Below the pieces are notes generated by a model that ran no database searches, was not told the DNA's origin, and saw only the letters and a list, made by a program, of their open reading frames with translations. Of a stretch of DNA of 37,900 nucleotides, positions 9,196 to 25,781 are shown piece by piece. Source of the stretch: Comamonadaceae bacterium (GTDB taxonomy: Bacteria; Pseudomonadota; Gammaproteobacteria; Burkholderiales; Burkholderiaceae_C). The DNA is taken from positions 1 to 37,900 of the forward strand of contig JAECRA010000041.1 of the NCBI GenBank assembly GCA_015999985.1. Reading direction: 5' to 3'. A program made the translations under genes and the position numbers. How positions within the stretch are numbered: the stretch's first letter is position 1; the number at the start of each line of letters is the position of its first letter.

Positions 9196-9214
9196 GCGGG
9201 CCCTAAAAAAAGAT

Positions 9215-9242
9215 AAAAGAACGATCGTTCTGTTTCATTGTA
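9215..9242 (-). promoter_or_regulatory. Probable operator and -10 element of the fad-type operon
   Basis: AGAACGATCGTTCT at 9218-9231 is a perfect 14-bp palindrome; allowing one mismatched pair it extends over 9215-9234. On the minus strand a TACAAT -10-like box occupies 9242-9237, so transcription would start inside the palindrome, a good position for a repressor. Short GC-centred palindromes of this form are typical TetR-family operators, and TetR-type regulators of fatty-acid degradation are known in betaproteobacteria. No -35 box of good quality was seen, and the regulator gene is not in the window. Confidence 0.55.
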
Positions 9243-9308
9243 GGAGTTGCATGTTGCAGCGCAATAGGGCTTGTCCCGAGCGCGACAAGTCAGAAGGTCA
9301 AGAAATCT

Positions 9309-9395
9309 ATGGTATGCGCCCGTTTACCGGAGCTTGAAGGATTAATCTACGACCATTGGCGCGCTTTGCTGGACGCCCTGGATGCGGGTGAATAA
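9309..9395 (+). CDS. Possible 28-aa small ORF
   Basis: An ATG-to-TAA reading frame encoding 28 residues that end in LLDALDAGE, with AAGG about 11 nt upstream. Its stop lies only 7 nt before the next downstream start (9403). The peptide is helical in character, acidic at the end, and shows none of the odd composition typical of chance frames. It could be a leader peptide or small protein coupled to the following gene. It matches no family I know, and 28 codons is short enough to arise by chance. Confidence 0.3.
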   Translation: MVCARLPELEGLIYDHWRALLDALDAGE

Positions 9396-9402
9396 TGAGG
9401 TC

Positions 9403-9957: not shown

Positions 9958-10003
9958 ACCACATTGGCTCAACTTCAGTCACCCTATTGCGTGGATTCAA
10001 GCG

Positions 10004-11116: not shown

Positions 11117-11211
11117 AATGCCACTGTGCTAGTCAGGCTATCCCTGCGTGATGGCCTAGGCAACGAGCGTTGGGAAAGGGCCCTCTCACTGGCCCATGCC
11201 ACCTAATTGCC

Positions 11212-11490
11212 TCACCACTCAATAAAAGCAGGGGCTCCGGGTTCCTGCCTCAGCTGGACTTCCTGATTCTGGGTCGGTGTCGAGCAGGCTGTTTCTGAGC
11301 CGCCTTCTCGACGTGGCACCCAGGACGTGGTACGCAGCCCCGAAACCTGGGACGCATGCTCGTGACCTAGCACTTTCGCATTCGGGTTGGCCTGCGTATA
11401 TTCAAGCCTGTTATCCGGATGATCTGTAAACCGTGCATTGAATGTGCACCAGATGGGTGCAACTGATTCCTGCTTGCCAATGTGCGACAT
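11212..11490 (-). CDS. Hypothetical protein, 92 aa
   Basis: A minus-strand frame occupying the otherwise gene-free stretch 11117-11581. The start is supported by GAGGTGG about 8 nt upstream of the ATG on the minus strand. The product is polar, without a signal peptide or membrane segment, and has two cysteines (in IWCTF and TACST). It matches no family I recognise. It is divergent from the GH81 gene, with 91 nt between the two starts. The strong ribosome-binding site favours a real gene; lack of recognisable homology leaves it uncertain. Nothing else was seen in this intergenic stretch. Confidence 0.4.
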   Translation of the reverse strand: MSHIGKQESVAPIWCTFNARFTDHPDNRLEYTQANPNAKVLGHEHASQVSGLRTTSWVPRREGGSETACSTPTQNQEVQLRQEPGAPAFIEW

Positions 11491-11581
11491 GTGATTTCCA
11501 CCTCAGTGGATAAAAGCGGGACTCAGCCGCACGACTTTCAATAGTGAATCAGTATTATTTAATTCTCCAGCTAAGGAAAAA

Positions 11582-14557
11582 ATGATGAACAACGACTGGC
11601 AACAAAGATGTCGCTTCAGTCTGCTGACGATGAGTTTGTTCGGCGTTGTCGGCCTGGCGGCTTGCGGTGGCGGCGGCGACAGCTCCAGCAGCAGTGCCTA
11701 CAGCGACCACCCACCGACGCGCGTCGCACCCGTGCTGGCTGACAGCACTATCCCCGCTACCTTGGCTCCGATCGGACCGAGTGCGAAATCGGCCAACTTG
11801 CTGACGGCCAAAGCCTCAGACCTCCCGGCGATTTCCACCGTGGATCCCAGTACCGTGCTGGGCGGGGGGGCGGTCACGAATCCATTTCAACCCGCCAACA
11901 AGAACTTCACCCTGGTAGAGGGCATGGCCGGAAGGCCTCTGCCTACGGGCAAGTGGTACAAGTCCTTCTTCTATCAGAGCCCTCGCAATATGGACGTACC
12001 ACTAGGGGTCCCCGGCGATTCGCGCGAACAGTCCGTCTTTGCCTTTCCTAACCAGGCATGGCTGGATGACCGCTCTGGCATGGTCAACGTCGCATTTCCG
12101 CGCAAGCGCTTTATCCCCAAACCGGGCGCGCCGTTGGATATGTCCAATCCGTATTACGTGGACGCTGCGCCTTACATCATGGCGCCCTCCCCTAATCCCG
12201 ATCTGCAACTGACGTACCTGCCTGCCAGCAGCGGACGACTCACTCGTCGTATCGATCACCAAGATGAGCTGACCGTGGCTACGTCCTGGTACGGTACCGC
12301 CGCCAACGGCGCGGGCTTGCCCAGCATGCAGCTCATCATGGCCGTGGGCTCTCCCTACATCACAGCCAAGTATGCCAATTTGCGCCCGCAGATCGGCCTG
12401 GGCCAGGGGATCCGCGCTCAGGAAGACAAGGACCCTGTTACCCGGCTCCCCACCAACCCTGGAAAGGGCGACCCCAACAAATGGGAGGCCATCCCTGAAA
12501 TTCAGGCCGTCTCCGTGGACAACGGAGAAATCCAGCCATTCGCTGAAAACGGCGGCGCCCCCACTACGCCAGACCTGACGGGCAAGAAATTTCGCTTTGT
12601 CTACCGCACCTCTGACGAATCCGTCAGCACCGATCCGAACCTGGCGTTCATGCAACGCGTGATGGTGGTCTATACCTCGGCACAAGTCACATTGAAGTGG
12701 GACATCCCTTCACGTACGTATGTGTTCAGTGCCCCTTTCAACGGCACCGTCCGCGCGGCCTTCGTGAATGAGCAGCCATTTTCTCCAACGCTTGCGCCTA
12801 CAGCGGTAAGCTTTCCCACGGAGGAAGCCCTGCTGGACAAGCATTCGGTCGAATACCCCGTGACCTCTTCGATCAATCTGCAGTACGCCGGTGGCAATGA
12901 TGCGTCGGTGCGCTACGGCTGGAACACGGAAACTCTGGACGGATCTGTGGCTTCAGGCGACCGCTTGCTGATGGTGGCATTCGATCAGTTGCACCTCAAG
13001 TCCATGCCCGATGCCAACAAGGTTGGGCTGAAGTACCGCTCGAATTTCGGAACCATGACGGGCGTGGTGGGCAAATCCTGGAATCAGACACTCAAGATTC
13101 CGGGGGTGTTGCAAGAGTCCAGCCAGGCTGAACAGCTCTGGCAAGGTGCGGGCACCATCAAGGCCTCCGATCGTGCAGCCGTACTGGCGTCATTGCGCGC
13201 CGATGCAGCCACTGCCAAAGGTTACATCGCACACTGCAACTACGAGTCTTACCTGTGCGGCAAGTATGTGGGCAACATTGCTCGCTTGGTACTCATCGCA
13301 GCGCAGTTGGGAGAAGAGGCTAAAGACACCCGCAATGAGATGCTCGACTTCTTGAAGTCGACCCTCAACCCCTGGTTTGACGCCAAGGACGACGACGATC
13401 CCGAATGGGGCGACAAGCTCACCAAGAAAATGCAGGACTACTTCCGTTACGACACCACCAATGGTGGCACGGTAACCAACCGTCCGTTTCTGCAGAACGA
13501 CTATGAGCAGGACTTCTACAACGCCACGTACCTGGACCATATGTTCCACTACGGCTACTTCCTGTATGCCTCTGCAGTCCTGGGCCGATATGACGCCACC
13601 TGGCGCGACAAGTACAAGGAGCCGGTGAATACCTTGGCACGTGATATTGCCAACTACAGCAGCGACGACACCTACTTCCCCATTACCCGCACCTACGACT
13701 GGTTCCGCATGCAAAACGTGGCGGACGCAGGCCCTGATGCAAACGGTGGCAACACAGAGTCCTCCAGCGAAGCTATCCATGCCAACTACGGCCTGGTGCT
13801 GTGGGGTGCCGTCACAGGCAACCCAGAGATGCAAGCGATGGGCATGGTCATGGCAGCGGGGGAAATTCGTTCTGCTCAAGCCATGTACCAGGTGACGCCA
13901 ACCAACAGCGTCTTCCAGGACGTCGCACCGATTGAGATCCCATTGAAGGGTGGAGGCTCTGTCACGGCCGACCCCAACAAACTCATCACGGTAGGTATCA
14001 AGCGCTTTAACCTGACTGAAACACAAGTCTTCTTTGGCCAACGCGAGACTTATCGCGTCGGGATTCAGATCTTGCCTATCAGTCCGCTGACGCCCTACAT
14101 ACTCTCGCAGGATTGGGCGAGTCACCATGCCAGCGCCCTGCTGCAGTTGGAAGCCAACGATACCGGTCTGTTCGACAAGCTCTTTACAGCCTCCCCCGTG
14201 GGTGCTCAGTGCGGAACCACTGCAACAGGTGCTCCTTCACTCATGCCTGCGGCTGATTGCGCAGGCCAGGCACGGGTGCTGTACAGCTGGCGTCAGATCA
14301 TCAATTCTGTCAATGGCATGAACAACCCTGCGGCCGCGTTCGATCGCTACACCAGCTACATGGCCAAACTGCCTCAGCAGACTTCAGCCTTCATGGCCAA
14401 CTCGGTGGGAACGCCCTTCTCCTACGTGGATTCCAACACCAAGGAAGTGGTCTCGGGTACTTACGCAGCGCCAGGTGTCGATCCCGATGTATTGAAAGAT
14501 GCGTCGACTCCGTCAAACAACACCAATGTGCTGTGGTGGCTGTCGACACTCAAGTAG
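11582..14557 (+). CDS. GH81 endo-beta-1,3-glucanase, lipoprotein
   Basis: A 991-aa glycoside hydrolase family 81 enzyme expected to cleave beta-1,3-glucan (laminarin, curdlan, fungal wall glucan). The signal peptide ends in the lipobox LAAC with C28 as the lipidated cysteine, followed by a Gly/Ser-rich tether, so it is exported and membrane-anchored. The N-terminal domain shows RPLPTGKWYKSFFY near residue 120 and SVFAFPN. The catalytic alpha-barrel shows YLDHMFHYGYF with the probable general acid D652, and NTESSSEAIHANYG with E726 and E730, which correspond to the paired acidic residues of the family. A ribosome-binding site (AAGGA) precedes the ATG. It stands alone, without a sugar transporter beside it. 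Confidence 0.92.
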   Translation: MMNNDWQQRCRFSLLTMSLFGVVGLAACGGGGDSSSSSAYSDHPPTRVAPVLADSTIPATLAPIGPSAKSANLLTAKASDLPAISTVDPSTVLGGGAVTNPFQPANKNFTLVEGMAGRPLPTGKWYKSFFYQSPRNMDVPLGVPGDSREQSVFAFPNQAWLDDRSGMVNVAFPRKRFIPKPGAPLDMSNPYYVDAAPYIMAPSPNPDLQLTYLPASSGRLTRRIDHQDELTVATSWYGTAANGAGLPSMQLIMAVGSPYITAKYANLRPQIGLGQGIRAQEDKDPVTRLPTNPGKGDPNKWEAIPEIQAVSVDNGEIQPFAENGGAPTTPDLTGKKFRFVYRTSDESVSTDPNLAFMQRVMVVYTSAQVTLKWDIPSRTYVFSAPFNGTVRAAFVNEQPFSPTLAPTAVSFPTEEALLDKHSVEYPVTSSINLQYAGGNDASVRYGWNTETLDGSVASGDRLLMVAFDQLHLKSMPDANKVGLKYRSNFGTMTGVVGKSWNQTLKIPGVLQESSQAEQLWQGAGTIKASDRAAVLASLRADAATAKGYIAHCNYESYLCGKYVGNIARLVLIAAQLGEEAKDTRNEMLDFLKSTLNPWFDAKDDDDPEWGDKLTKKMQDYFRYDTTNGGTVTNRPFLQNDYEQDFYNATYLDHMFHYGYFLYASAVLGRYDATWRDKYKEPVNTLARDIANYSSDDTYFPITRTYDWFRMQNVADAGPDANGGNTESSSEAIHANYGLVLWGAVTGNPEMQAMGMVMAAGEIRSAQAMYQVTPTNSVFQDVAPIEIPLKGGGSVTADPNKLITVGIKRFNLTETQVFFGQRETYRVGIQILPISPLTPYILSQDWASHHASALLQLEANDTGLFDKLFTASPVGAQCGTTATGAPSLMPAADCAGQARVLYSWRQIINSVNGMNNPAAAFDRYTSYMAKLPQQTSAFMANSVGTPFSYVDSNTKEVVSGTYAAPGVDPDVLKDASTPSNNTNVLWWLSTLK

Positions 14558-14564
14558 TAGACCT

Positions 14565-14595
14565 CACATCAAGCGGCGCCAAGCCGCTTGATGTG
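14565..14595. terminator. Strong hairpin between convergent GH81 and flavoreductase genes
   Basis: Perfect 13-bp arms, CACATCAAGCGGC (14565-14577) and its complement (14583-14595), flank a 5-nt loop; T14564 and A14596 add one more pair. It begins 7 nt after the GH81 stop codon. There is no T-tract on either strand, so it is a 3'-end-protecting or factor-assisted terminator rather than a classical intrinsic one. Its symmetry allows use by both convergent transcripts. Confidence 0.6.
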
Positions 14596-14678
14596 ATCCA
14601 GGGTCGGTGGAGCGCCCTGGAAATTACTCCACCAAAGCAATGAAATCCAGTACCCACGCGTTGCGGATGCAACTCGCA

Positions 14679-16079
14679 TCAATAGACATCCCGCCTATAC
14701 CGGCCCCCGATGGTCAGTTGCTCCAGAAGGGGTTCACCCAACGCCTGTCGCAGCGCTGCATCCACCCCGCTCGCCATGCCCTCGCGCTGACCACAGACAT
14801 AAATGGCCGCACCGTGGCTCACCCACTGCTGCACCAGGTCACAATAAAGCCCGATGAAGTCCTGTACGTAATGCGCAGGCGCTTGTGCATCCCGAGAGAA
14901 TGCACGATCCAAGCGTTTGAGCACGCCGGAGGCAAGCCAGCCTTCAAGTCTTTCACCGCACAGCGCATCAAATTGGCAAGTTCGTTCACCAAACAAGAGC
15001 CAGGTAGGACCTATAGGCCGACCGAGCTGCCGCGCGAGCGCACGCGCCTCCAGGTGTGCGATCAATCCTGCTAAACCCGTGCCGTTACCGATCAGAATCA
15101 GTGGTACGGCGGCCTCCGGACTGTGGAACTCACGGTTGCAGCGGATCTCCATTCTGAGCTCACCGCCTATCGCAAGCCCGTGGCCCAGCCAACCAGACCC
15201 CAGGCCTCGCTGGCCATCTGGCTTCAAAACCTCACGCACCATTAATTCCGCATAGCCACTCTGCGGCAATGACGCCAGCGTGTAATCGCGGCTCGTGGGC
15301 ATATCGTCGGAATTATTGGAAATCCATACCCGCGCCACGTCTCCGGCATGCCATTGCACAGTAGGATCCTCTGGCCACAGCACTATGCGGTGAATGGGCG
15401 CGCCAGGACTGCCGCTATTCAAGATCTCACGCCGAACCAGTGTCCAACGCGGCGCGAGTGCTGCCTGCCGAAAGGGCAATGGGTCAGCAGCCAAGGTATG
15501 GTCAGTAAACCGCTCAACGGCTTGACGCCACATGTCCAAGGCGGCTGCATGGCCGCCGTCAACCTCGATACGGCTGAAGGCCGAAATTGCACCGGCTGAC
15601 ATCAACCAGGCGTCCAGCTCTCTGCCAAAGCGGCAAAAATTCGCATAACTGCGGTCACCCAAGGCCAAAATGCCGTAGCGTAATTTCTGAAGATTGAGTG
15701 TGCCGCTCATCACCCGTGAAACGAACGCAGCGGCATTGTCAGGTGCGTCGCCCTCGCCCGTAGTGCTGACAATAAAGAGCATGCGATTGGCCTTGCCGAT
15801 ATCGAGCGTACTTAGACTGTGCAAAGATCGAGCGTGCGCCGGGTGACCACCCGCTGTCAGCTTGTGTGCCAAATTTTCAGCCATTAGGGTTGCGAAACCG
15901 CTCTGGCTCGCATAGCCAATCAGCAATGGGCCAGCGTGGTCTTTAGCAGGCAGGCGTCGAGCGATCCTGCGGGTGGACTGCCAGGTGCCGAGTTTTTTAC
16001 GCATCGGCCCGATCCACAAAGAAAGCCAGACAACACAGGCGAACGCAGCCCATATCCAGCGGCTGGGGTCGACCGTCAT
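14679..16079 (-). CDS. Membrane-anchored flavodoxin/FNR-type NADPH reductase (CysJ-like)
   Basis: A 466-aa diflavin reductase. Residues 7-25 form one membrane helix (WIWAAFACVVWLSLWIG), followed by a basic stretch that keeps the enzyme on the cytoplasmic side. The flavodoxin domain has the FMN loops YASQSGFA, STTGEGDAPDN and ALGDRSYANF. The FNR domain has SRDYTLAS for FAD and IGNGTGLAGL plus YVCGQREGMASGV for NADPH, and ends in an aromatic residue (Y). The start at 16079 overlaps the ApbE stop as ATGA; the frame stays open 72 codons further upstream, but that part lies inside apbE and is not protein-like. It would feed electrons to the membrane or periplasmic partners encoded beside it. Confidence 0.88.
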   Translation of the reverse strand: MTVDPSRWIWAAFACVVWLSLWIGPMRKKLGTWQSTRRIARRLPAKDHAGPLLIGYASQSGFATLMAENLAHKLTAGGHPAHARSLHSLSTLDIGKANRMLFIVSTTGEGDAPDNAAAFVSRVMSGTLNLQKLRYGILALGDRSYANFCRFGRELDAWLMSAGAISAFSRIEVDGGHAAALDMWRQAVERFTDHTLAADPLPFRQAALAPRWTLVRREILNSGSPGAPIHRIVLWPEDPTVQWHAGDVARVWISNNSDDMPTSRDYTLASLPQSGYAELMVREVLKPDGQRGLGSGWLGHGLAIGGELRMEIRCNREFHSPEAAVPLILIGNGTGLAGLIAHLEARALARQLGRPIGPTWLLFGERTCQFDALCGERLEGWLASGVLKRLDRAFSRDAQAPAHYVQDFIGLYCDLVQQWVSHGAAIYVCGQREGMASGVDAALRQALGEPLLEQLTIGGRYRRDVY

Positions 16080-17101
16080 TCTGATGAATCCAACATAGCC
16101 GTCATGGCCGTACTGATATGTTCCTCCATGCCTGCGCAAGTCCGTACTGTCAGCAGCGCTGCAAGTCCATACCGTTCGGCCCAGTCCATGGCCCTCTGAG
16201 GCTCCATGGCAGTCAACACCGTTGCGTGTACGTCTGCCTCCATGGCCATGCGGTGCAACACGGTGACTGAAGCTGTGCCATGCGCGATGGGCCAACCGCT
16301 TTGGCCGTCCAACGTGTGTGAATATTGGCGCCCCTGATGGTTGAAATGGTGATGGGTGTCGCCCGAGGTGGCCACTGCCATATCCACCAATGCCAACAAG
16401 CTTCGAGGGCCGGCCCCCTTATTTTGCAAAAGCACCCACCAGGGTTGCAGATCGTGTCTCAGCCCGCGGCTCTTGAGCTCCCCGCCGATTTCGACGAGGT
16501 GCACGCAGGCCCCTTCACGCACTAACCTGGAGGAGACCTGGTCAACAGCCCAGCCCTTGGCGATACCACTGAAATCAAGTTGCAGGCCAGCGGGTTTATG
16601 CAGTGTTCGCCTGGTCGAATCAATTTGGACACGCCGCCAGCCGCTCGCACGCAAACCCCCGTCGATCTCATGTTGAGTCGGGAGGGGGGCCCACTCCGGA
16701 CGTGGCCCCTCCGGGCCAAAACCCCACAAATTCCCCAGCGCACCGAGCGTGGGATCGACCGCGCCACCGCTGGCCTCCGCCCAGGCCAGGCTACTTTCAA
16801 GAACGGCCCAGCAGGGCGCGGAAAATTGCCAGTCGCCCCCAGGAGCTGCATTGCAGCGGGCAACTTCGCTGTGAGCCTCCCAGGTACTGAACAGTTCGAT
16901 GGCGTGGGCCAGTTCCTGCATGATGGCCGTGCGCAAACGCTGGGGCTCCACATGCTTCGGCGCATACGCCTGAACCGACCAGTGTGTCCCCATCGCTGTC
17001 CCCTTGAATCGGTGCATCGGGTAGCCGGCAAGCGGTACCGCAGGAATGTTCTCACCAGGGTCAACCGGCAAGAACACGCGGTTGGTGCTAGTTTCAGCCA
17101 T
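16076..17101 (-). CDS. apbE: FAD:protein FMN transferase (ApbE family)
   Basis: A 341-aa ApbE-family protein that transfers FMN from FAD onto a serine or threonine of a target protein. Conserved segments in order: MGTHWSV (residues 37-43), FSTWEAHSEVARCN (71-84), DFSGIAKGWAVD (176-187), EIGGE (204-208), ATSGD (244-248) and SHTLDGQSGWP (261-271). Unlike most exported ApbE proteins it shows no signal peptide or lipobox in its first 35 residues, so it may act in the cytoplasm before target export, or use another route. It overlaps the PepSY-type gene by 8 nt and the reductase gene by 4 nt. The adjacent DUF2271 protein carries a candidate acceptor motif. Confidence 0.92.
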   Translation of the reverse strand: MAETSTNRVFLPVDPGENIPAVPLAGYPMHRFKGTAMGTHWSVQAYAPKHVEPQRLRTAIMQELAHAIELFSTWEAHSEVARCNAAPGGDWQFSAPCWAVLESSLAWAEASGGAVDPTLGALGNLWGFGPEGPRPEWAPLPTQHEIDGGLRASGWRRVQIDSTRRTLHKPAGLQLDFSGIAKGWAVDQVSSRLVREGACVHLVEIGGELKSRGLRHDLQPWWVLLQNKGAGPRSLLALVDMAVATSGDTHHHFNHQGRQYSHTLDGQSGWPIAHGTASVTVLHRMAMEADVHATVLTAMEPQRAMDWAERYGLAALLTVRTCAGMEEHISTAMTAMLDSSE

Positions 17102-17720
17102 GGACGAAGAGCAACGCTATCAAGATAGGTGCCAACAGGCTCAAACCTGTCAACGGCCAAGTAAGAGGCCGGGTGCGGCCATGCATCCACAAAAGCGCGA
17201 ACCCTGTCAGCGTAAAGACCACGCAACTAACCGCCATGCAATCGATGAACCACGACCACGCGACGCCAGCGTTGCGGCCTTTGTGCAAATCATTGAAGTA
17301 GGCTAGCCAACCGCGCTTGGTGACTGTGTAGGTCGCATTGGCGTCGGCCCGGTCAATCACCAGGGCCCCCTCCCCTCCGGGCATGGGAATCGCCACGAAA
17401 ATCTCATCGGGAGCGGCCTCCGCAGGGAGGCTGGAGACATTGATGGCGAAGGTCTCCTCAACCCAGCGCGCGAGTTCAGGGGGCGCTGGATCAGTGCCGC
17501 TGTCCGCCATGGCCTCCAGCACCGGCAACAAGCCCGCTGGCAACGCTGCGTGTTGCTCATGTTTGCTGGGGTTGGACGGCAGGCTGGCAGCGTGGTTGAG
17601 AGTGATGCCTGTGACAGCGAACATCAGCATCCCGGCTAAGCTGATGGCAGCGGAAATCCAGTGCCAGGTATGCAGTTGCCGAAGCCAAAAGCCTCGCTTG
17701 CCAGCCTCTTTTGCCCGCAT
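17094..17720 (-). CDS. PepSY-associated TM-helix protein
   Basis: A 208-aa inner-membrane protein with helices at about residues 21-41, 157-179 and 188-206, and a periplasmic PepSY-like domain of about 110 residues between the first two. The family signatures RQLHTWHW, VTGITLNH and YFNDLHKGR are present. Histidines H17, H20, H43, H146 and H180 lie at or near membrane helices and could bind heme, as proposed for related flavo-heme reductases. The ATG overlaps the YncE-like gene's TAA by one base (TAATG), and the 3' end overlaps apbE. Likely role: passing electrons from the cytoplasmic reductase across the inner membrane. Heme binding is inferred from histidine positions only. Confidence 0.85.
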   Translation of the reverse strand: MRAKEAGKRGFWLRQLHTWHWISAAISLAGMLMFAVTGITLNHAASLPSNPSKHEQHAALPAGLLPVLEAMADSGTDPAPPELARWVEETFAINVSSLPAEAAPDEIFVAIPMPGGEGALVIDRADANATYTVTKRGWLAYFNDLHKGRNAGVAWSWFIDCMAVSCVVFTLTGFALLWMHGRTRPLTWPLTGLSLLAPILIALLFVHG

Positions 17721-18868
17721 TAGAAAGCGATGCGCACCACGGCCTCGTGGCTGCCTCGTACATCATTACGGCCGTTTTTAACCGTGACGTAAAGCACGTT
17801 GTTCCGACTGTCCAGCGCCATGCTGTTCGGGTGCGTTGGCAGCGCGATCGTCTGCAGCAATTGGTGGCTGGACGTGTCAAACACGCTGACGCTACCTGCA
17901 CCGCGGTTGGTGACGTACAAACGTTGGCGGGGCACGTCCAACACCGGCGCAATTGGACCTTCGCCAGTCTGCAAACTGGTGGTGATTTTTCCGCTGTCGG
18001 CATCAAATACCACGACACGGTTGCCAGGGGTAGGCTTGAAACCGGGCTCTGCCTTCTGACGGCGCTCGCTGATGCTGGTCAAGCCCTGGTCCGTGGCGAA
18101 CAGTCGCCGAGCTTTGGGGTCGTAGGCCAAATTAAGCATCTGGTCTGCGGCTACGTTATAGCTCTTGCTGATCGTCAGGCTGCGCGTGTCGACTTCGTAA
18201 AGGCCACCGCGCATGTTGGACACGAACAAGCGGTGGTTGTCTGCGTCCAAAGCGATGCCGGTCGCCACAGCCCCAAGCCCTGGAAGCTCCTTCTCGAGCG
18301 TGAGCGTGCGCGTGTTCATCACATACAGCGAACTGCCATCCGAGCTGAGACCCGGCGCATAAAGACGAGCATTGGCCGTATCGAGCACCAGCTCGCGGAA
18401 ATGATGCGGATACTTTTCCTTGCCATCGGCACCTTTGACCTTCTTCATCAGCGGGACGGTCTGCACTACTCGATTGCTGGCAGTGTCCACCACGGTGACC
18501 GAACCTTCTGTCGTGTTCCCGACGTACAGCCTGTTGGAAGCGTCATCCAGTACGACGCCAAATCCACGCAGCGGTAATGCGATCTCAGCCTGCACGGCAA
18601 GCGTCTTGGGATCAAGGCGCAACACTTTGCTAGGCCCGGCGCCCTCACCAAAGCCTCCTGAAGAGGCCACAAACACGGCATTTTGGCGTGCGGAGAAGGC
18701 AACTTCGTACAGCGCTGGTGCGACGGCTGCGCGTTGAATTTGAGAGCTCTGTACGGGTTTGTAGACCACGGGCCCCGACACTGATTGGCCAACAGGCGCC
18801 TGCATGCCGCAGGCGCTGATGCACGCCACGGTCAGCAGGGCCAATGAGCGAGATAAAAACGATTTCAT
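17720..18868 (-). CDS. YncE-like beta-propeller lipoprotein
   Basis: A 382-aa exported protein with a lipobox ISAC near residue 20. The mature part is built of repeated beta-propeller strands such as RLYVGNTTEGSVTVVDTASN, RLFVSNMRGGLYEVD and RLYVTNRGAGSVSVFDTSS, as in the YncE/surface-antigen seven-bladed propellers. Proteins of this kind are often induced by iron limitation, but their ligand is poorly known. A start at 18868 is preferred over an ATG at 18883, because GGA lies about 10 nt upstream of 18868 and none precedes the other. It lies between the DUF2271 and PepSY-type genes and shares one base with the latter. Confidence 0.85.
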   Translation of the reverse strand: MKSFLSRSLALLTVACISACGMQAPVGQSVSGPVVYKPVQSSQIQRAAVAPALYEVAFSARQNAVFVASSGGFGEGAGPSKVLRLDPKTLAVQAEIALPLRGFGVVLDDASNRLYVGNTTEGSVTVVDTASNRVVQTVPLMKKVKGADGKEKYPHHFRELVLDTANARLYAPGLSSDGSSLYVMNTRTLTLEKELPGLGAVATGIALDADNHRLFVSNMRGGLYEVDTRSLTISKSYNVAADQMLNLAYDPKARRLFATDQGLTSISERRQKAEPGFKPTPGNRVVVFDADSGKITTSLQTGEGPIAPVLDVPRQRLYVTNRGAGSVSVFDTSSHQLLQTIALPTHPNSMALDSRNNVLYVTVKNGRNDVRGSHEAVVRIAF

Positions 18869-18921
18869 GCTTGATGTTTCCATAGTTGGATGGGTTGGAA
18901 CGCAGAGGTTCCAGATTCGCT

Positions 18922-19479
18922 TCAGGGCGCAGCTACCACACTCACTTTTCCGAGCTCGGTACGTCCCTGCGCGTCGGCCTGACTGGCCGAACGACCCCAG
19001 GTGAAAGGCAGACGCAGCATCTCCCGTCCGCCGTTTTCGCGTGCTACTTCGATGGCCAGCTGATACTGCCCTGCAGGGAGCTTTGCCAGTACGCCCTTGG
19101 CATCGCTGAATTGAAGCAGGTGCGTGCCGGCCGGACGAGTGGCGCTGCTGACGCCATCTGCAGGCAGCACCATTTGTTCGCCACTACTGCGCCACCACGT
19201 ACGCAAGTTGCGCAACCAGCCCCTGCCACCGTTGTCTCGCAACCGTGTGTCATACCAAACGGCCAGAGTGCCAAGCACAGCTTTGTCTTCCTCGGCTTTC
19301 TCGACCCACGCCGCGAGATAGGGCCGGTAATAAGAGGCCGTATCAATGGCTGGCAGGGTGACCTGCAGCGTGAGAGTGCCTGCACCCGCCGGCGCAGCCA
19401 GCAAGGTCAGTGCAGCGCCAGCCCACCAGTGAGTTTTATGCTTTGCGTACCCTGCCGCAACGCTTTTTGGCGCGCTCAT
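18922..19479 (-). CDS. DUF2271 periplasmic protein with flavinylation-like motif
   Basis: A 185-aa exported protein with a hydrophobic signal region at about residues 18-33. Family segments are YYRPYLAAWVEKAEED near residue 50, the Trp-rich LRNLRTWWR near residue 89, ADGVSSATRPAG near 107, and LPAGQYQLAIEVARENGG near 134. Residues 108-114 (DGVSSAT) resemble the DxxSGAT motif flavinylated by ApbE, with T114 as candidate acceptor. Its gene overlaps the EF-hand gene by 4 nt (ATGA) and lies in the same operon as apbE and the PepSY-type gene. A role as a periplasmic flavin electron carrier is inference; the second S in place of G makes the motif imperfect. Confidence 0.85.
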   Translation of the reverse strand: MSAPKSVAAGYAKHKTHWWAGAALTLLAAPAGAGTLTLQVTLPAIDTASYYRPYLAAWVEKAEEDKAVLGTLAVWYDTRLRDNGGRGWLRNLRTWWRSSGEQMVLPADGVSSATRPAGTHLLQFSDAKGVLAKLPAGQYQLAIEVARENGGREMLRLPFTWGRSASQADAQGRTELGKVSVVAAP

Positions 19480-20009
19480 CTATTCCCGCTCGGCTGCTCA
19501 CGTGGGCGCTGCGGATCGGCCGCAGACACGACGCCATCACCGCTGGTGTCCAGGTTGGCGAAGGTCTTTTCAGCAATCGCGTTGTCTTCCGCACGCGTGA
19601 ACTTGCCGTCCCGCGCTCGGTTGACGATGCCAAAGCGCACGTGCGCTTGCTTGATACCGTTCTCGTAGGCCTTGTCCGGCTGACGTCCAGTATCAAAGTA
19701 CTGCCGTTTCAAACGGGACTCGAATTCTGCGACGTACTCGTCTTCGCTGAGCCAGCCGTCACCATTGGTGTCAGCGGCTTGAAAGCGCTGTGCGCGGATC
19801 GCATCGAACTCGGCGCGCGTGACCTTACCGTCTCGGTCGGCATCGTAGCTGCCAAGGAAAGCTGCCATGCCATGGCCCCCTGCAGGGCGCGCGGGCTGCG
19901 ACTGTGCTGTGGTAGATGCGGCGTTCTTGGGCGCAACGCTGCCGGCGCAAGCCGACAGGAATGCGGCCAGAGCCAGCACGGCAAGAACAGGTTTTTTTGA
20001 GTGATTCAT
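19476..20009 (-). CDS. EF-hand calcium-binding lipoprotein
   Basis: A 177-aa exported lipoprotein with lipobox LSAC (C21). It has three good EF-hand loops: D56-D58-D60-G to E67, D80-N82-D84-G to E91, and D154 to D165 (DTSGDG). A degenerate loop lies near residues 130-141 (NRARDGKFTRAE). Calcium binding is therefore likely. The start at 20009 is chosen because the preceding in-frame residues are not signal-like, while MNHSKKPVLAVLALAAFLSAC is a clean lipoprotein signal. It sits directly after the TonB receptor gene (49-nt gap) and overlaps the DUF2271 gene. Its role in the uptake system is not known. Confidence 0.85.
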   Translation of the reverse strand: MNHSKKPVLAVLALAAFLSACAGSVAPKNAASTTAQSQPARPAGGHGMAAFLGSYDADRDGKVTRAEFDAIRAQRFQAADTNGDGWLSEDEYVAEFESRLKRQYFDTGRQPDKAYENGIKQAHVRFGIVNRARDGKFTRAEDNAIAEKTFANLDTSGDGVVSAADPQRPREQPSGNR

Positions 20010-20058
20010 AGAGGGTCTCGGTGACGTTGGAGTGATGGGGGTAGATGCGCCAGTGCCT

Positions 20059-22734
20059 TCAGAAGTCCACATTCAAGCTGACAGCGAATGTGCGGCCTGG
20101 CGCGGTAGAAAGCTCAATCTGTTGGCGATCCCGGGCGTTGGCTGGTTGCAGACTGCGCGTGCTGCTGTAGGCCCAATACCGCTTGTCAGCCAAGTTAAAG
20201 ATGCCGAAGTTCAGGCGGGTATGTTTATTGATGCGCCAGTAGCCGGAAATGTCAAAACGCGCGAAACCGGGCACGCGGAACAGATCCGTTGACGAATCAG
20301 TCAGTTCGGCGCCGGGGTTGTTGCTATAGGACTGGCGATTCGTAGCGGTGGCCTGTTTGCCACGAACGAATGTGCCCATCAGGTTCAAACCCCAGGCCTT
20401 TTGCGGTGCCTCATAGCCTACGCCGATGATGGCTTTGCCAGGTTGCACGGAGTCCAGGTCCACATTCTTGTCGCCCGCATAGTTTGACTTGGAGCTGCCT
20501 TTGCTGTAACCCACTGCCCAGGTGGTGTAGAGGCCGCGCAGCGCGGGCGTCCATGTACCATGGTCCAGCCGAACGCTGAGTTCAGTGCCGTAGATGTTGG
20601 CCACATCGCGATTTTCGGCTTGGTAGAGAATGCTCAGGCTGTCCTGGATGTTGACAAACTTCTCAGGATTGTTCGCCCGCGTATAGCGTGTATAGGATAT
20701 GAAATCCTTGTATTTTGTGTAGAAGACAGAGCCCGCAAATTGCACCCCGGGCACTGGAGAGCCCTTCAGGCCGACGTCGAAGGCGTTGCTGGACTCTGCC
20801 TTCAAATTTCGGTCGCCGAGCAGCGCGTACGTGCCTCCGCCGCTATTCCAATAGCCGAAAATCTCACTGTTGGTGGGAGCGCGACCACCCCGCTTCCACT
20901 GTGCGTAGGCGGTCATGTTGGGCATTACGTCATAAAGCACAGCCAGACTCGGACTGACGATGGTCGTCGTCGGTGCGTTGCCATACATCGCTTCCAACTC
21001 AGCCTGCGTGATGCGGTCATTGCCGAAGTTACCCGCATTTCGGATGCTCGGCTCGATCCGGTCCACCCGCAAACCCGGCACCACTGCGAGCCGGCGGCCA
21101 CCTAGCTGGAAGTCGATGGTGTCCTGTACAAACGCCCCCGAACGCACCGTCAACGTATCAGGAAACGGTTGGCCAGCGCCGAACGCCTCACTGGATGTAA
21201 ATGGGTGCTCGTTCTTGGTTCGCGAGTAGTTCACACCGAACTTGATCGCGTGGTTGGCAATGCGTTTGTCTGCCACGCTGGAAAAGCCGATCTGCTGCGT
21301 GGTGTTCTGCGAAGCTTCTCGGACCGCCGCACCGGGGGCTTTGGTGACCGTGTTGGTCACGTCGTCCATGTCGGTGTTTTGCAGGAACAGACGGGTGTTG
21401 ATCTGGTCTATAGGACCCCCGACCCCAGGCGTCCAGGTGTGCGCGGCGTACACCGTATCGCGCGTGGTGCGGGCGTCTTGATTTGAAGTTCCGGTGACCG
21501 CCGTACCGTCGGCGTTCCAGCTTGCGAAGGTGGACTGGTTCTGTTTGCGGTAAAGGTCAGCGGCCAGCTCCAGCTTGTGTTCGGGGTTCACACGCATCAC
21601 ACCTTTGAGCAACAACGCGTCCGAATTCCAGCGCTCGGGGTATCTGGACATGGATTCACTGTTGTTCTTGGACTCATGGCCATCACGGCGTGAGTAACCC
21701 ATCAGTAGCCCTAGATCACCAGTCTGCCCCGCCAGCGTCACTCCCTTGGACCAAGCACTATCGGCTTGGCTATAGCCGAGTTTGGCTCCTGCATAGAACG
21801 GATTGCTGGCGCTCACATAGTCTTCTGGCGACTTGCTGCGAAAGCTCACCGCCCCGCCGATGCCTCCAGCAGAACGCTGAGAATTGGTCGTCCCTGACTG
21901 AATATCTACAGAGGAATACAGCTCAGGGTCGATAAAGTCACGCCCCATGCCGAAGGTGCCGTCTTCTGAGCGTGCGGTCATTGGCGCCCGGCTGACCGCG
22001 TCGGGCATTTCGATGCCATCCACGTCCAATCCGACCCGGTTTCCTTCAACGCCACGGATGTTGTATCCGGTGGTGCCGCCACGGTCGTAGCGACTTGCGC
22101 CTCGCGTGGCTCCTTGCACCGTACCTGGCGCTTCTACCAACGGCTGATAGCGAATCACGTCCGCAATGCTATTACCCCCTGTGCGCTCAACATCATCTTG
22201 AGTAAGGACCGTGCGGGTTCCCGCTTCACGCCGAACTGCGTCTGCCGTCACCTTGACTTCGGCCAAGGCAACTTCGCCTTGCGCGGGCATTGCGGCAGTT
22301 GCAGCAGTTGCAGCAGTTGTGGAGTTCGATGTGGATGCTGCCGCCGACGCCGGTGAAGACGCTTGGCGCAATACCCAGACTCCGCGGCTGCGTTCATGCA
22401 CTTCCAGCCCGGTGCCGGCCAATAATTGGGCGAATCCTTCACGCACGCCATAGCGCCCTTGGAGCCCGCTTGTTCGGCGACCCGAAACCAACCTGGCGTC
22501 CAGTTGCACGGTCACGCCTGCGCTGGTAGCGAAATTGCTCAATGCGTCATCGAGCGGCCCAGCAGGCACCGCATAGGCACTTACCGGCACAGGACCTTGA
22601 GCCAAGGCGGCTGGCAGCCAGCCTGCGCCAGTGGTCAGCGCCATCATCAACATGGCTTGGCGCGCGGCTTGGGCGAGCGGGGCAGTTTTCGAGCGCGCAG
22701 GGGCGCCTTTGGAGATATGGTCGTGTCGAGACAT
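20059..22734 (-). CDS. TonB-dependent receptor with STN signalling domain, heme-receptor-like
   Basis: An 891-aa outer-membrane transporter. After a signal peptide ending near AALAQ (about residue 46), an STN domain (VPAGPLDDALSNFA to VWVLRQ) indicates cell-surface signalling through FecR. An Ala-rich linker leads to a probable TonB box (ALAEVKV), the plug (GGTTGYNIRGVEGNRVGLDVDGIEMPD) and a 22-strand-type barrel ending in FAVSLNVDF. Plug and C-terminal segments (NLADKRYWAYS) resemble heme/hemoglobin receptors. The FRAP and NPNL boxes are degenerate (GRAPT 617-621 and GDRNLKAES 640-648), and no histidine lies between them, so heme may not be the ligand. fecR and fecI lie directly upstream. 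Confidence 0.92.
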   Translation of the reverse strand: MSRHDHISKGAPARSKTAPLAQAARQAMLMMALTTGAGWLPAALAQGPVPVSAYAVPAGPLDDALSNFATSAGVTVQLDARLVSGRRTSGLQGRYGVREGFAQLLAGTGLEVHERSRGVWVLRQASSPASAAASTSNSTTAATAATAAMPAQGEVALAEVKVTADAVRREAGTRTVLTQDDVERTGGNSIADVIRYQPLVEAPGTVQGATRGASRYDRGGTTGYNIRGVEGNRVGLDVDGIEMPDAVSRAPMTARSEDGTFGMGRDFIDPELYSSVDIQSGTTNSQRSAGGIGGAVSFRSKSPEDYVSASNPFYAGAKLGYSQADSAWSKGVTLAGQTGDLGLLMGYSRRDGHESKNNSESMSRYPERWNSDALLLKGVMRVNPEHKLELAADLYRKQNQSTFASWNADGTAVTGTSNQDARTTRDTVYAAHTWTPGVGGPIDQINTRLFLQNTDMDDVTNTVTKAPGAAVREASQNTTQQIGFSSVADKRIANHAIKFGVNYSRTKNEHPFTSSEAFGAGQPFPDTLTVRSGAFVQDTIDFQLGGRRLAVVPGLRVDRIEPSIRNAGNFGNDRITQAELEAMYGNAPTTTIVSPSLAVLYDVMPNMTAYAQWKRGGRAPTNSEIFGYWNSGGGTYALLGDRNLKAESSNAFDVGLKGSPVPGVQFAGSVFYTKYKDFISYTRYTRANNPEKFVNIQDSLSILYQAENRDVANIYGTELSVRLDHGTWTPALRGLYTTWAVGYSKGSSKSNYAGDKNVDLDSVQPGKAIIGVGYEAPQKAWGLNLMGTFVRGKQATATNRQSYSNNPGAELTDSSTDLFRVPGFARFDISGYWRINKHTRLNFGIFNLADKRYWAYSSTRSLQPANARDRQQIELSTAPGRTFAVSLNVDF

Positions 22735-22848: not shown

Positions 22849-23850
22849 TCACTGGACTAGGGGCCTGATCTCCACCCACCAACGTGTACGGTAGGCCATG
22901 CGGACCGGTAACGTGTCCGGCAATGCGGCAAGAATCTCGTCTGTGCTGTCCAAGCGGAATGCTCCGCTAATTCGAAGCTCGGCGACCTCCGGCGCGCAAC
23001 GCACCACGCCTCTCCGATATCGCCCAAGTTCAGCCGCGAAGTCCGCCAACCGCTGGTTGCTGGCAAAGAGCATTCCGCGCACCCATGCGTCCTGCTGGGG
23101 ATGCTCCGGAACGATCTCATGCGCGCCAGCAGCATCAAACCGAGTCTGCAAGCCAGCCTCGATACGGAAGGGTGGGTCATTAGAATTCGTCGGGCGAACC
23201 TCAACCGCACTTTGCTGCACTGCCACAAGGGTCGTCGAGTCTGCTGGCGTCTGCCGCACCAGGAACCGCGTCCCCAGTGCCCGAATGCGGCCGTGGCGCG
23301 TTTGCACTTCAAACGGCCTGCGTGCGGAGTCCTGTGCGGTCTCTATCTGGAGCTCTCCAGAGTGAAGCTTGACCAGACGCAGTCCCTTACTCTCCGAGTC
23401 AAAGGAGACGTCAATATCTGTGGCCGTGTTGAGCTCAAGCGTTGTGCCATCGGGTAGCACCACTTTACGGTGTTCTCCTGTTGCAGTGCTATGACTGACG
23501 CGCCAGGTATCCTGCCCATAGGAAATTCCACGCCAGAGCGTGTAGACCACCGGTGCGGCCACCGCGAACACCGCCAAGCTCTGCAAGGCAGAGCGGCGTC
23601 CGGCTTGGCGGCGAGCACGGCCTAGCACCTGCAGACTCACCAGCGGAGGCAAGCGCCCCAGTTGAGCGTTCAGACGTACAGCGCGCTGCCAGGCCAACTC
23701 GTGCAACTCATCTGCACTTCGCCATCGCTCCAAGTCCTGCCGCTCGGCTGCCGTAGCTTCGCCCGAGTTCATGTGTGCCATCCACCTGGATGCTGCACGC
23801 AAGACCTCACGCGGTACCGCGGCACCTCTACCCTCGCCTGAACCTGTCAT
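22849..23850 (-). CDS. fecR: FecR-family anti-sigma factor
   Basis: A 333-aa inner-membrane sigma regulator. The cytoplasmic N-terminal DUF4880-type segment (AASRWMAHMNSGEAT to ELAWQRA) would hold the sigma factor. One membrane helix (LAVFAVAAPVVYTLW) lies near residue 100. The periplasmic FecR domain has HRKVVLPDGTTLELNTATDIDV and RLVKLHSGELQIET. A start at 23850 gives an ATGA overlap with fecI; an ATG 18 nt further upstream is possible. It should relay receptor occupancy, sensed through the STN domain, to FecI. Confidence 0.92.
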   Translation of the reverse strand: MTGSGEGRGAAVPREVLRAASRWMAHMNSGEATAAERQDLERWRSADELHELAWQRAVRLNAQLGRLPPLVSLQVLGRARRQAGRRSALQSLAVFAVAAPVVYTLWRGISYGQDTWRVSHSTATGEHRKVVLPDGTTLELNTATDIDVSFDSESKGLRLVKLHSGELQIETAQDSARRPFEVQTRHGRIRALGTRFLVRQTPADSTTLVAVQQSAVEVRPTNSNDPPFRIEAGLQTRFDAAGAHEIVPEHPQQDAWVRGMLFASNQRLADFAAELGRYRRGVVRCAPEVAELRISGAFRLDSTDEILAALPDTLPVRMAYRTRWWVEIRPLVQ

Positions 23851-24380
23851 TCGATTCGCATCAAACATTCTTCGAATGCTTGCGCCATGTACCGTTTGAC
23901 GGTGCGCTCCGCAATACCCATGCGTAAGGCGATCTCTGCATAGGTCAGCCCTTCGAGCTGTGCCAGCAGGAACGCGGTGCGCACTTTTGAAGGCAAAGCG
24001 TCGAGCATGGCGTCAATCTCGTGCAATGTTTGCAAGATGCTCAGGCGGTCCTCGGGAGAGACCGCAAATGATTCGGGATGAAGTGCCAGCGCCGCCAGCC
24101 AGGCTTGTTCGAGCGATGCCCTTCGAAAATGATTGGCGAGCACCCTCCCCGCCACGGTAGTGAGATATGCGCGTGGCTCCCGCACGGAGTTCAGGGCCAA
24201 TTCCTCTGCTCGGCAGGCTTCCAGGATACGCACAAAAGTATCATGCATAAGATCTGCCGCCTGATGAGCATCCCCCAACTTACGGCGCAACCAGTTGTGC
24301 AACCACCCCTGGTGTTGGCAATAGAGGACGTCGATCTGTTGTTCGGTTGATAAATCTAGACTGGAATCTGTCGCGATCAC
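23847..24380 (-). CDS. fecI: FecI-type ECF sigma factor
   Basis: A 177-aa extracytoplasmic-function sigma factor. Region 2 runs through HQAADLMHDTFVRILEA and REPRAYLTTVAGRVLANHFRR. Region 4 is the helix-turn-helix LTYAEIALRMGIAERTVKRYMAQA. The start codon is GTG. It is the first gene of the uptake operon or of its regulatory part, and a Fur-box-like site lies 29-47 nt upstream. Expected targets are the TonB receptor gene and the genes downstream of it. Confidence 0.93.
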   Translation of the reverse strand: MIATDSSLDLSTEQQIDVLYCQHQGWLHNWLRRKLGDAHQAADLMHDTFVRILEACRAEELALNSVREPRAYLTTVAGRVLANHFRRASLEQAWLAALALHPESFAVSPEDRLSILQTLHEIDAMLDALPSKVRTAFLLAQLEGLTYAEIALRMGIAERTVKRYMAQAFEECLMRIE

Positions 24381-24408: not shown

Positions 24409-24427
24409 GTAAATGAGAATCATTACC
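24409..24427 (-). promoter_or_regulatory. Fur-box-like site upstream of fecI
   Basis: The 19-nt stretch matches the classical Fur consensus at 15 positions; its core TGAGAATCATTACCA (24414-24428) differs from the symmetrical 7-1-7 form at two positions. The position just upstream of the sigma factor gene is the usual one for iron-repressed FecI systems. It supports iron as the nutrient that controls this locus. Confidence 0.72.
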
Positions 24428-24556: not shown

Positions 24557-24865
24557 CTAGGCGTGTAAAGCTTGAAATTTAGCCCGATCACCATCTGCTT
24601 TCCGGTACGCGTAGTCGGCCGGATCGGTGCCCACGAGGTTGTCGAGCTGGTTTGATGAGGTGTCCGGCAGGATCAGCCGGTGCCACACCATCTGGATTCG
24701 GGTCCACCCGTCGCTCACCTGGCTGTTGCAGCGGCCCAGGATGCGCGAGCCCTGCGGGATCAGCAGATGGCGGCCGGAATCATGGTGTCGGGGATTGGAG
24801 TCGGATGGCCGTGATGCCGGGGGTGCAGCCCAAAATCCGGCGGCGCGTTGCGCCGACAGGTCCAT
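24557..24865 (-). pseudogene. trbI: Decayed TrbI/VirB10-type conjugation gene fragment
   Basis: A 102-codon minus-strand frame. Residues about 29-93 (24587-24781) read SGRHLLIPQGSRILGR, then MVWHRLILPDTSSNQLDN and GTDPADYA. This follows the conserved core of TrbI/VirB10 mating-pore proteins, where LLIPQG, a W-R-I-x-PDGSS segment, a DN and a TD-x-A-x-YAG occur in that order and spacing. Intact TrbI is about 400 aa or more; here the N-terminal part and everything after the YA are lost, and expected residues are replaced (for example C for Y in the GRY position). The frame stays open further upstream (to 25507), but only as a shadow of the plus-strand gene. It marks a relic of a conjugative element. 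Confidence 0.65.
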
Positions 24866-24881
24866 GTTCTTTGCTTCTTTC

Positions 24882-24909
24882 TTGACATGCAGGCATTTAC
24901 CTGCATAAT
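24882..24909 (+). promoter_or_regulatory. Promoter with embedded inverted repeat for the SRPBCC-ArsR operon
   Basis: A perfect -35 box TTGACA (24882-24887), a 16-nt spacer and a -10 box CATAAT (24904-24909). The inverted repeat ATGCAGG-N6-CCTGCAT (24887-24906) fills the spacer exactly, so a bound dimer would block RNA polymerase. The ArsR-type regulator encoded in the same operon is the obvious candidate ligand. The predicted transcript starts near 24916, downstream of any earlier in-frame start of the first SRPBCC gene. Confidence 0.65.
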
Positions 24910-24970
24910 TCATCATCAGATTAAGGCTGCGACATCCGCGGTCTCTCTGTTCGATCGGGAAGGAAATGTC

Positions 24971-25426
24971 ATGGCAGATATTGCTCACAGGATCGGCATC
25001 AAGTCCACGCCGGAAGCGGTCTACAAAGCCCTGGCCACGCGTGAAGGCGTAGCTGGCTGGTGGACCGAGAACACAACCGGAGAAAGCTGCGTGGGCAGTG
25101 CGCTCCGGCTCCGCTTCACGTCCGACGGCACCGAGATCGGCGACATGCAGATGAAGGTCTTGCAGCTCCGCCCGGCCGAACTCGTTCTGTGGGAGGTGGT
25201 GGCCGGCCCTGCCGAGTGGATCGGTACGACGATCCGTTTTGAACTCAAGCAGGAAGGCGAATATTGCATCGTCCTCTTCACCCATGAGGACTGGAAAGAA
25301 CGCGTCGAGTTCATGCACCACTGCGGTACCAAGTGGGCGATCTTCATGATGAGCCTGAAAGCGCTGGTGGAAACCGGCAAGGGCCTGCCGAGTCCGCACG
25401 ATGTCAAGATCGACAACTGGAACTGA
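24971..25426 (+). CDS. SRPBCC (AHSA1-like) domain protein 1
   Basis: A 151-aa protein of the Activator-of-Hsp90-ATPase-1-like SRPBCC group, a hydrophobic-ligand-binding fold. Typical segments are IKSTPEAVYKALATREGVAGWWT at the start and WKERVEFMHHCGTKWAIFMMSLKALVETGKG at the end. The start at 24971 is chosen because AGGAAA lies just upstream and because the longer frame would begin before the promoter. It is the first gene of a three-gene operon, 40 nt before the ArsR-type gene. Ligand and role are unknown. Confidence 0.87.
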   Translation: MADIAHRIGIKSTPEAVYKALATREGVAGWWTENTTGESCVGSALRLRFTSDGTEIGDMQMKVLQLRPAELVLWEVVAGPAEWIGTTIRFELKQEGEYCIVLFTHEDWKERVEFMHHCGTKWAIFMMSLKALVETGKGLPSPHDVKIDNWN

Positions 25427-25466
25427 CGCAAAGTTGGCCTGCCTTCGGGAGCTTAAGTGAAGACCA

Positions 25467-25781
25467 ATGGACGCTGACAAGGTCTTCAAGGCGCTGGGTG
25501 ACCCCACTCGCAGGCGGCTGCTCGATCTTTTGTGCGAGCAGAACGGCCAGAGCCTTGGTCAACTCTGCGAGACGCTGGATATGACCCGGCAATCAGCCAC
25601 GCAGCATCTGGAAATCCTCGAAGCCGCCAACCTGATCAGCACGGCCCGGCGAGGACGCGAGAAGCTGCATTTCCTCAACCCCGTGCCGCTGCACGACATC
25701 TATGAACGCTGGGTCCGCAAGTTCGAGCGCGAGCGGTTGCGGCTCTTGCACGACCTCAAACATAAACTCGAAGGAGAATGA
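25467..25781 (+). CDS. ArsR-family winged-helix regulator
   Basis: A 104-aa repressor-type protein. The segment FKALGDPTRRRLLDLLCEQ leads to the recognition helix-turn-helix LGQLCETLDMTRQSATQHLEILEAANLI and the wing RRGREKLHFLNP. The ELCVCD metal site of arsenic and metal sensors is absent, so it is probably not a metal sensor. ArsR proteins of this kind are commonly encoded next to SRPBCC proteins, as here on both sides. It overlaps the second SRPBCC gene by 4 nt (ATGA). It probably represses its own operon at the inverted repeat near 24887-24906. Confidence 0.92.
   Translation: MDADKVFKALGDPTRRRLLDLLCEQNGQSLGQLCETLDMTRQSATQHLEILEAANLISTARRGREKLHFLNPVPLHDIYERWVRKFERERLRLLHDLKHKLEGE

Follow-up and report, generated by a model that had tools for sequence, protein, structure and literature searches.

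A TonB-dependent receptor operon joined to a putative periplasmic flavin and haem electron chain in a Comamonadaceae bacterium

Here we surveyed and analysed a stretch of 37,900 nucleotides from a Comamonadaceae bacterium (assembly GCA_015999985.1, contig JAECRA010000041.1, positions 1 to 37,900 of the forward strand; hereafter the window), in which nine minus-strand genes running from 24380 to 14679 join a FecI/FecR regulatory pair and a TonB-dependent receptor to the genes of a flavinylation-type electron chain. The set is probably a single uptake operon controlled by Fur and FecIR that includes a periplasmic iron reductase devoted to the ferric chelate it imports. The receptor, which carries an STN signalling domain, would import the chelate and signal through FecR and FecI, and electrons of NADPH would pass to the flavin adenine dinucleotide (FAD) and then the flavin mononucleotide (FMN) of a membrane-anchored reductase. 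From there they would cross the inner membrane through haems on the histidines of a PepSY protein (H20/H180 on the inner and H146/H207 on the outer side by topology) and reach FMN on Thr114 of a DUF2271 protein, which would reduce the incoming ferric complex and release Fe(II). The EF-hand and YncE lipoproteins of the set would serve as ligand-handling partners of the receptor. This interpretation is supported by the published flavinylation of DUF2271 and iron link of PepSY-like clusters, by a Fur-bound Caulobacter operon and its fitness under ethylenediaminetetraacetic acid (EDTA), and by the comparative data given below: co-occurrence in 33 of 39 genomes, an association in a family sample, separate branches of the chain proteins, gene losses in strain Leaf274 and a Fur-box-like site. 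The gene families with their conserved residues, the selection, the co-occurrence and the joint loss are observed, and the cofactors, the direction of electron flow, iron as the substrate, the regulation and the roles of the EF-hand and YncE proteins are inferred.

The operon opens with a fecI-type ECF (extracytoplasmic function) sigma factor gene with a GTG start (23847-24380; NF041727 9.1e-54 and PRK12528.1 180.6 bits, each under the cut-off of its model, which is 184 bits for the latter) and a fecR-type anti-sigma regulator gene (22849-23868; PF04773 2.5e-19). Then come the receptor (20059-22734; PF07660, PF07715, PF00593), an EF-hand lipoprotein (19476-20072; PF13202, PF13499; lipobox LSAC by eye), the presumably exported DUF2271 protein (18922-19479; PF10029 1.3e-39), a YncE-type beta-propeller lipoprotein (17720-18883; NF052280 2.5e-71, under cut-off; E. 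coli YncE 3vgz 2.2e-37; lipobox ISAC by eye), a PepSY_TM_like_2 three-helix membrane protein that may act as a bis-haem electron conduit (17094-17720; PF16357 3.6e-69, PF03929 2.3e-10), the FAD:protein FMN transferase ApbE (16076-17101; PF02424 1.9e-69) and a diflavin reductase with one N-terminal hydrophobic helix (14679-16079; PF00258, PF00175; C-terminal half of CysJ 1.1e-53, below the cut-off of that model). Gene ends mostly overlap or nearly abut. The reductase most likely starts at the ATG at 16079, a conserved start followed by the hydrophobic helix; the open reading frame list had given a TTG at 16295. A preliminary description of the window had named the seven genes from the receptor to the reductase, and profile searches recovered all seven on the minus strand in the families assigned to them; its extent was too short, as fecR and fecI, which lie upstream and fit the STN domain of the receptor, had been left out.

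Among named relatives Ottowia thiooxydans DSM 14619 (Comamonadaceae, Burkholderiales) is the closest, with a receptor that is 95% identical. Against it, the ratio of nonsynonymous to synonymous substitution (dN/dS) is 0.09-0.26 in all nine genes, which is purifying selection; against Pseudorhodoferax sp. Leaf265 it is 0.10-0.22, with dS above 1 and near saturation. Chance or decayed reading frames are ruled out by these ratios, and the recurrence of the gene run in other loci likewise speaks against chance.

The PepSY protein has 208 residues, and its AlphaFold model (mean predicted local distance difference test score 82, predicted template modelling score 0.62) places three long helices with one domain between the first and the second. 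All of 33 PepSY proteins have His20 and His146, and at least 90% of them keep His180 and His207; all four are invariant in the eight PepSY proteins encoded in a receptor operon that holds the full chain (hereafter merged operons). With the positive N-terminus inside, His20 and His180 would face the cytoplasm and His146 and His207 the periplasm. The match to PF03929, the PepSY_TM family, reaches 41.2 bits (cut-off 28.8), and a PF16357 or PF03929 membrane-protein gene adjoining a DUF2271 or ApbE gene, as found here, is the arrangement by which PepSY-like flavinylation systems are recognised. For the model, Foldseek found nothing in the PDB at E 1e-3, VIA-align put FoxB at rank 10 only, and a sequence search of solved structures with the protein and its profile found no match.

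The flavinylation-like motif that the preliminary description saw in the DUF2271 protein is present as DGVSSAT. Its acceptor Thr114 is identical in all 39 aligned proteins, 32 of which read DG(V/I)(S/T)GAT. The published motif [S/T]GA[S/T] thus matches at the acceptor and not at every letter, as its Gly is replaced by Ser in two of the 39, the window protein included. In a relative, the corresponding threonine is required for flavinylation by the ApbE of that organism (PMC8238504), and by analogy Thr114 of the window protein may carry covalent FMN. Searches of DUF2271 against solved structures returned chance-like matches only, nearly all to designed or repeat proteins, and the predicted model, in which the motif loop has low confidence, was not used.

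Export signals were scored by a crude hydrophobicity measure (mean of at least 1.6 across 15 residues). By this score the ApbE at 16076-17101 and those of the stand-alone clusters described below (L032-L056, L142-L166) seem to be without an export signal, though their substrate DUF2271 appears to carry one. A leader-like stretch was found in two of 52 ApbE proteins (nearly all from these clusters; four more had no readable anchor), in 46 of 61 DUF2271 proteins (four more unread) and in 48 of 51 reductases (11 more unread). In the window the scores are 0.55 for ApbE, 1.48 for DUF2271, which is just under the limit and shows a leader by eye, and 2.15 for the reductase. This ApbE is the sole one found in its genome, which is 79% complete, and none of the eight genomes with merged operons shows another. 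Either FMN would be attached in the cytoplasm or ApbE would leave by an unrecognised route, and an ApbE apparently lacking an export signal across the clusters raises the question of where the attachment takes place.

The chain is of a known type. The preliminary description took the complete chain, with EF-hand and YncE partners as one machine, to be uncharacterised. The chain as such is not: a study of 2021 described PepSY/DUF2271/ApbE clusters and tied them to iron and TonB genes (Meheust et al., PMC8238504), with 231 PepSY-like clusters holding a TonB receptor and with DUF4198 frequent and not obligatory (1500 of 3220 clusters); the unusual part here is the merger with the receptor and the addition of YncE and FecIR. 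The electron path from reductase through PepSY to flavinylated DUF2271, as first described for the window, agrees with the model published for this cluster type (PMC8238504), and our comparative data tie that path to the receptor. Like the published clusters, the operon has the PF16357 family, a flavinylation substrate with its enzyme and the proposed electron path (PMC8238504); unlike them, it has an altered gene order, no strong DUF4198 gene, and a receptor, EF-hand, YncE and FecIR in the set. In Caulobacter, CCNA_03155-03159 encode PepSY, DUF2271, DUF4198, ApbE and a sulfite-reductase-type flavoprotein and are Fur-bound (PMC3751524, PMC12004947), and insertions in this operon reduce fitness under EDTA (PMC12004947). 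Both halves of the system are present there as separate Fur operons (PMC3751524, PMC12004947), whereas the window has one operon without DUF4198. In Alteromonas, DUF2271 and DUF4198 genes lie near iron-responsive receptors (PMC7190382). HiuABC of Caulobacter and the FoxA/FoxB-type systems likewise pair a receptor with a PepSY membrane reductase for reductive iron release (PMC13001220, PMC10866019); FoxB-type proteins have two tandem PepSY domains and no flavoprotein partner is named for them in the portions available, unlike the single domain and separate flavin carriers found here. The order of sigma factor, anti-sigma factor and STN receptor is that of FecI/FecR/FecA signalling, with a receptor barrel of another family. 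No description of the merged operon was found in the available parts of the literature on DUF2271/PepSY flavinylation, FoxB, YncE and HutA systems. To judge from these literature searches, what is new is the merger into one operon, the separate PepSY and DUF2271 branches, the missing strong DUF4198, the joint loss in Leaf274 and the leaderless ApbE.

A scan with an alignment of six receptors gave 38 named loci, or 39 with the window; Ottowia was looked up as a member of Burkholderiales, and we take the other named genera to belong there too. The EF-hand gene adjoins the receptor in 36 of the 38 (not in L125 and L135; weak in L107 and L109). The full chain of DUF2271, PepSY, ApbE and reductase stands beside the receptor in seven (L104, L105, L110, L115, L120, L136, L137), which makes eight of 39 with the window, and the complete run of receptor, EF-hand, DUF2271, YncE, PepSY, ApbE and reductase recurs in five (L104, L105, L110, L115, L136). 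Conservation of the whole gene order across Burkholderiales is not supported: the order was found in three genera and in six of 39 loci, the window included. FecI/FecR lie directly upstream of the receptor in L104, L105, L136 and L139. DUF4198, initially an unnamed gene cluster that was assigned by Pfam on two members, stands beside the receptor in 20 of the 38 loci, never together with the full chain. Six receptor loci have DUF2271 without PepSY (L108, whose contig ends there, L111, L112, L113, L116, L124), a remnant of DUF2271 is left in L106, and five have the receptor and the EF-hand gene but lack both DUF2271 and DUF4198 (L114, L127, L139, L140, L141). As a separate observation, L139 of Oxalicibacterium flavum holds three consecutive FecI-FecR-receptor sets at 8107-22305, with the EF-hand gene beside the first.

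The chain also occurs on its own. DUF2271 was matched in 30 of 300 genomes of the order, the window's included; 25 of the 29 others have the order PepSY-DUF2271-DUF4198-ApbE-reductase (ApbE undetected in four of these), and the remaining four are of a distant type, with ApbE and DUF2271 in a single frame in three. A further 25 stand-alone clusters (L142-L166), taken from genomes with the receptor elsewhere, all show the full five-gene order, L163 with an extra DUF2271-DUF4198 pair. Counting a PF16357 match of E < 1e-60 as a strong PepSY gene and one of E < 1e-30 as a strong DUF4198, exactly one strong PepSY gene is present in 33 of the 39 receptor genomes, in the receptor operon in eight and elsewhere in 25 (24 of these loci were read directly; the last is covered by L035 of G133, which is evidently the same assembly; L035 belongs to the first stand-alone set and its genome holds the receptor too). 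Strong DUF4198 is found in all 25 genomes with the chain elsewhere, in none of the eight merged ones and, among the six without a chain, only in G604, a metagenome-assembled genome (MAG). Six merged genomes have weak DUF4198 matches, G590 with just one below the cut-off; the window genome has none, a weak absence given its completeness, and the argument rests on the other seven merged genomes. The family sample comprised 299 genomes: the PepSY gene occurs in six of the seven with a receptor of at least 54% identity and in 36 of the remaining 292 (Fisher p 3.5e-5, with no correction for kinship). Two more distant receptor homologues (39% and 34%), neither of them in a genome with PepSY, were counted among the 292.

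The receptor genomes without a strong PepSY gene are G592 (L106), G604 (a MAG of 2.9 Mb, L118), G608 (L122), G613 (L127), G626 (L140) and G627 (L141). Apart from the MAG, these genomes have a receptor operon that seems eroded or without a third partner: the chain is deleted in L106, L127 and L141 have no DUF4198, the receptor of L140 is split over two frames, and the DUF4198 match of L122 reaches 137 bits against 335-478 in the 19 others. A missing third partner was tried as a mark of the chainless genomes and is not a clean one, since L114 and L139 lack it yet their genomes keep the chain.

Part of this distribution weighs against a dedicated reductase and in favour of a chain that is a general periplasmic reductant under iron control, placed in the receptor operon by shared regulation and not by a shared substrate. 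In 25 of the 33 genomes having both, the chain lies away from the receptor; six receptor genomes do without it; and no relative of the receptor was found within the 20 kb fetched round the 25 order-wide stand-alone clusters (about 9-10 kb on each side in 23 of the 25, with L037 and L044 cut by contig ends). The trees point the other way. The eight merged PepSY proteins are split from 50 others by a 100/99 branch, and 14 receptor-linked DUF2271 proteins (matches over 100 bits, eight merged and six not, the L106 remnant left out) from 52 others by a 100/100 branch. Six receptor operons from genomes with PepSY elsewhere (L108, L111, L112, L113, L116, L124) carry a second DUF2271 of the receptor-linked branch. 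We regard the general reductant as quite improbable.

In the DUF2271 tree merged and PepSY-less receptor operons are intermixed, so that the chain may have been gained once or lost several times. In the PepSY tree L120 and L137, which lack YncE, fall outside the six YncE-bearing merged rows, and YncE therefore looks like a later insertion. It is tempting, though doubtful, to go further and see a general iron-reductase chain that one receptor recruited and that was remodelled into a closed machine for import and reduction, specific to this receptor. DUF2271 and PepSY of the receptor type would then have diverged together, DUF4198 would have become dispensable, YncE would handle ligand in some members of the branch, and ApbE, lacking a leader, would add FMN before DUF2271 is exported.

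A natural deletion series bears on the unity of the chain. Compared with Leaf265 (L136), Pseudorhodoferax sp. Leaf274 (L106, 9785-14996) has three deletions. The first, of about 1.4 kb, takes out most of fecI/fecR; the second, about 0.27 kb long, lies within DUF2271 and includes the flavinylation site; the third, of 2.7 kb, covers PepSY, ApbE and most of the reductase. The receptor, EF-hand and YncE frames are still open, and the Leaf274 genome showed no ApbE match and no strong PepSY gene. In this one genome the regulators and every component of the chain were struck, by three separate events. This favours a functional unit of DUF2271, PepSY, ApbE and reductase, from which receptor, EF-hand and YncE can be detached. 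Periplasmic flavin and haem chains are reported in thousands of genomes with the substrate mostly unknown, and genomes in which the chain is tied to a single receptor, along with a close relative bearing deletions, offer a direct route to the substrate and to the roles of DUF4198, EF-hand and YncE. The wire itself is familiar and the operon arrangement is a new variation on it, by which iron could be released just after entry.

The nature of the ligand was approached through the receptor. It passes TIGR01786, the haemoglobin/transferrin/lactoferrin type (328.4 bits, cut-off 323.75), lies far under the cut-off of the siderophore model TIGR01783, and has PhuR as its nearest solved relative (E 6.7e-82 with the profile). 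These matches favour a receptor for haem or protein-derived haem, with a chain that keeps haem iron reduced or serves haem handling, and so does the Caulobacter region CCNA_02274-02277, where an EF-hand protein, DUF4198 and a 'hemin receptor' are encoded together (PMC3751524). The hutA gene of Caulobacter, a possible counterpart of the window receptor gene, is also termed a characterised heme/hemin transporter (PMC13001220). The residues do not agree with haem: the histidine in the THRNYVDP stretch of PhuR aligns to Gly264, a glycine in all six receptors compared, and the window receptor is without a histidine between its two loop-7 boxes. We take this plug histidine of PhuR to be a haem ligand. 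In the nine genomes checked (the eight merged ones and G592), HemS-type genes occur in one, haem oxygenase PF01126 in four (two marginal) and FeoB in two; HemS and PF01126 were absent from the window genome at its 79% completeness and from both Pseudorhodoferax genomes with an intact operon, other haem-degrading families not being sought. The lacking histidines and the sparse HemS and haem oxygenase genes make haem an unlikely ligand and, with low certainty, favour a ferric chelate other than haem.

Of the two lipoproteins, the EF-hand protein was tried as a lanmodulin and rejected (33.4 bits against a cut-off of 135). The YncE-type propeller matched two families of solved structures at 1e-3, one being YncE and the other a surface-layer protein; no XusB chain was matched by sequence, and a Pfam search at 0.01 gave no DUF4374. 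XusABC of Bacteroides resembles the operon in joining a TonB receptor, a seven-bladed propeller lipoprotein and a PepSY reductase, and differs in that no flavin chain is named for it in the available text (PMC13142918) and in that the propeller here is YncE-type. YncE had been presented as a member of the chain, but it occurs in five of the seven full-chain loci besides the window and is missing from two of the eight merged operons, L120 and L137. These two have neither YncE nor DUF4198, so that YncE as an obligatory substitute for DUF4198 was rejected. Merged operons with YncE are those of Ottowia, Pseudorhodoferax and Xenophilus, and FecIR is merged only in Ottowia and Pseudorhodoferax. YncE is also present in L106 and in L108 (a Variovorax MAG) and FecIR in L139 (Oxalicibacterium), which makes transfer or loss of either possible; YncE and FecIR are not fixed members of the operon. 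Among nine further YncE loci of the family sample, a FecI/FecR or receptor gene lies within 20 kb in L094, L096, L098 and L101, and none within that distance in L092, L095, L097, L099 and L100. L094, from another genome of the window's genus, holds three or four tandem YncE stretches at 8605-12533 near a FecI-FecR-receptor set.

Regulation was examined with a Fur consensus and a background of 72 windows of 510 bp in this sequence. A Fur-box-like site on the minus strand (24409-24427; 15 of 19 matches to the consensus), 29-47 bp upstream of fecI, beats all 72. Over the 39 loci the mean best upstream score is 13.4 against a background of 9.9, and 19 beat every background window of their own locus; of the merged loci this holds for three of eight, the window, L104 and L115. 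A sigma-70 promoter scan gave one weak site on the opposite strand. Regulation also bears on copper as the substrate, since a TonB receptor and PepSY_TM pair, CrtA/CrpH, is described for copper in Bordetella and relatives (PMC12914433, PMC13038864). The copper operon promoter is without a Fur site (PMC12914433), against FecIR and the Fur-like site here; the portions available of the two papers mention neither DUF2271 nor DUF4198, and those of PMC13038864 no ApbE. Copper is thus a highly improbable substrate for the window operon.

Just upstream of fecI, the minus-strand stretch 24557-25507 contains a 58-residue TrbI match (PF03743, 1.5e-11, about 24620-24793), a possible remnant of a mobile element. 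On the other side, a plus-strand GH81-type glucanase gene (11582-14557) converges on the operon and adjoins it in Ottowia thiooxydans too, and beyond it lies a plus-strand PF00144 serine hydrolase of the beta-lactamase family (10004-11116).

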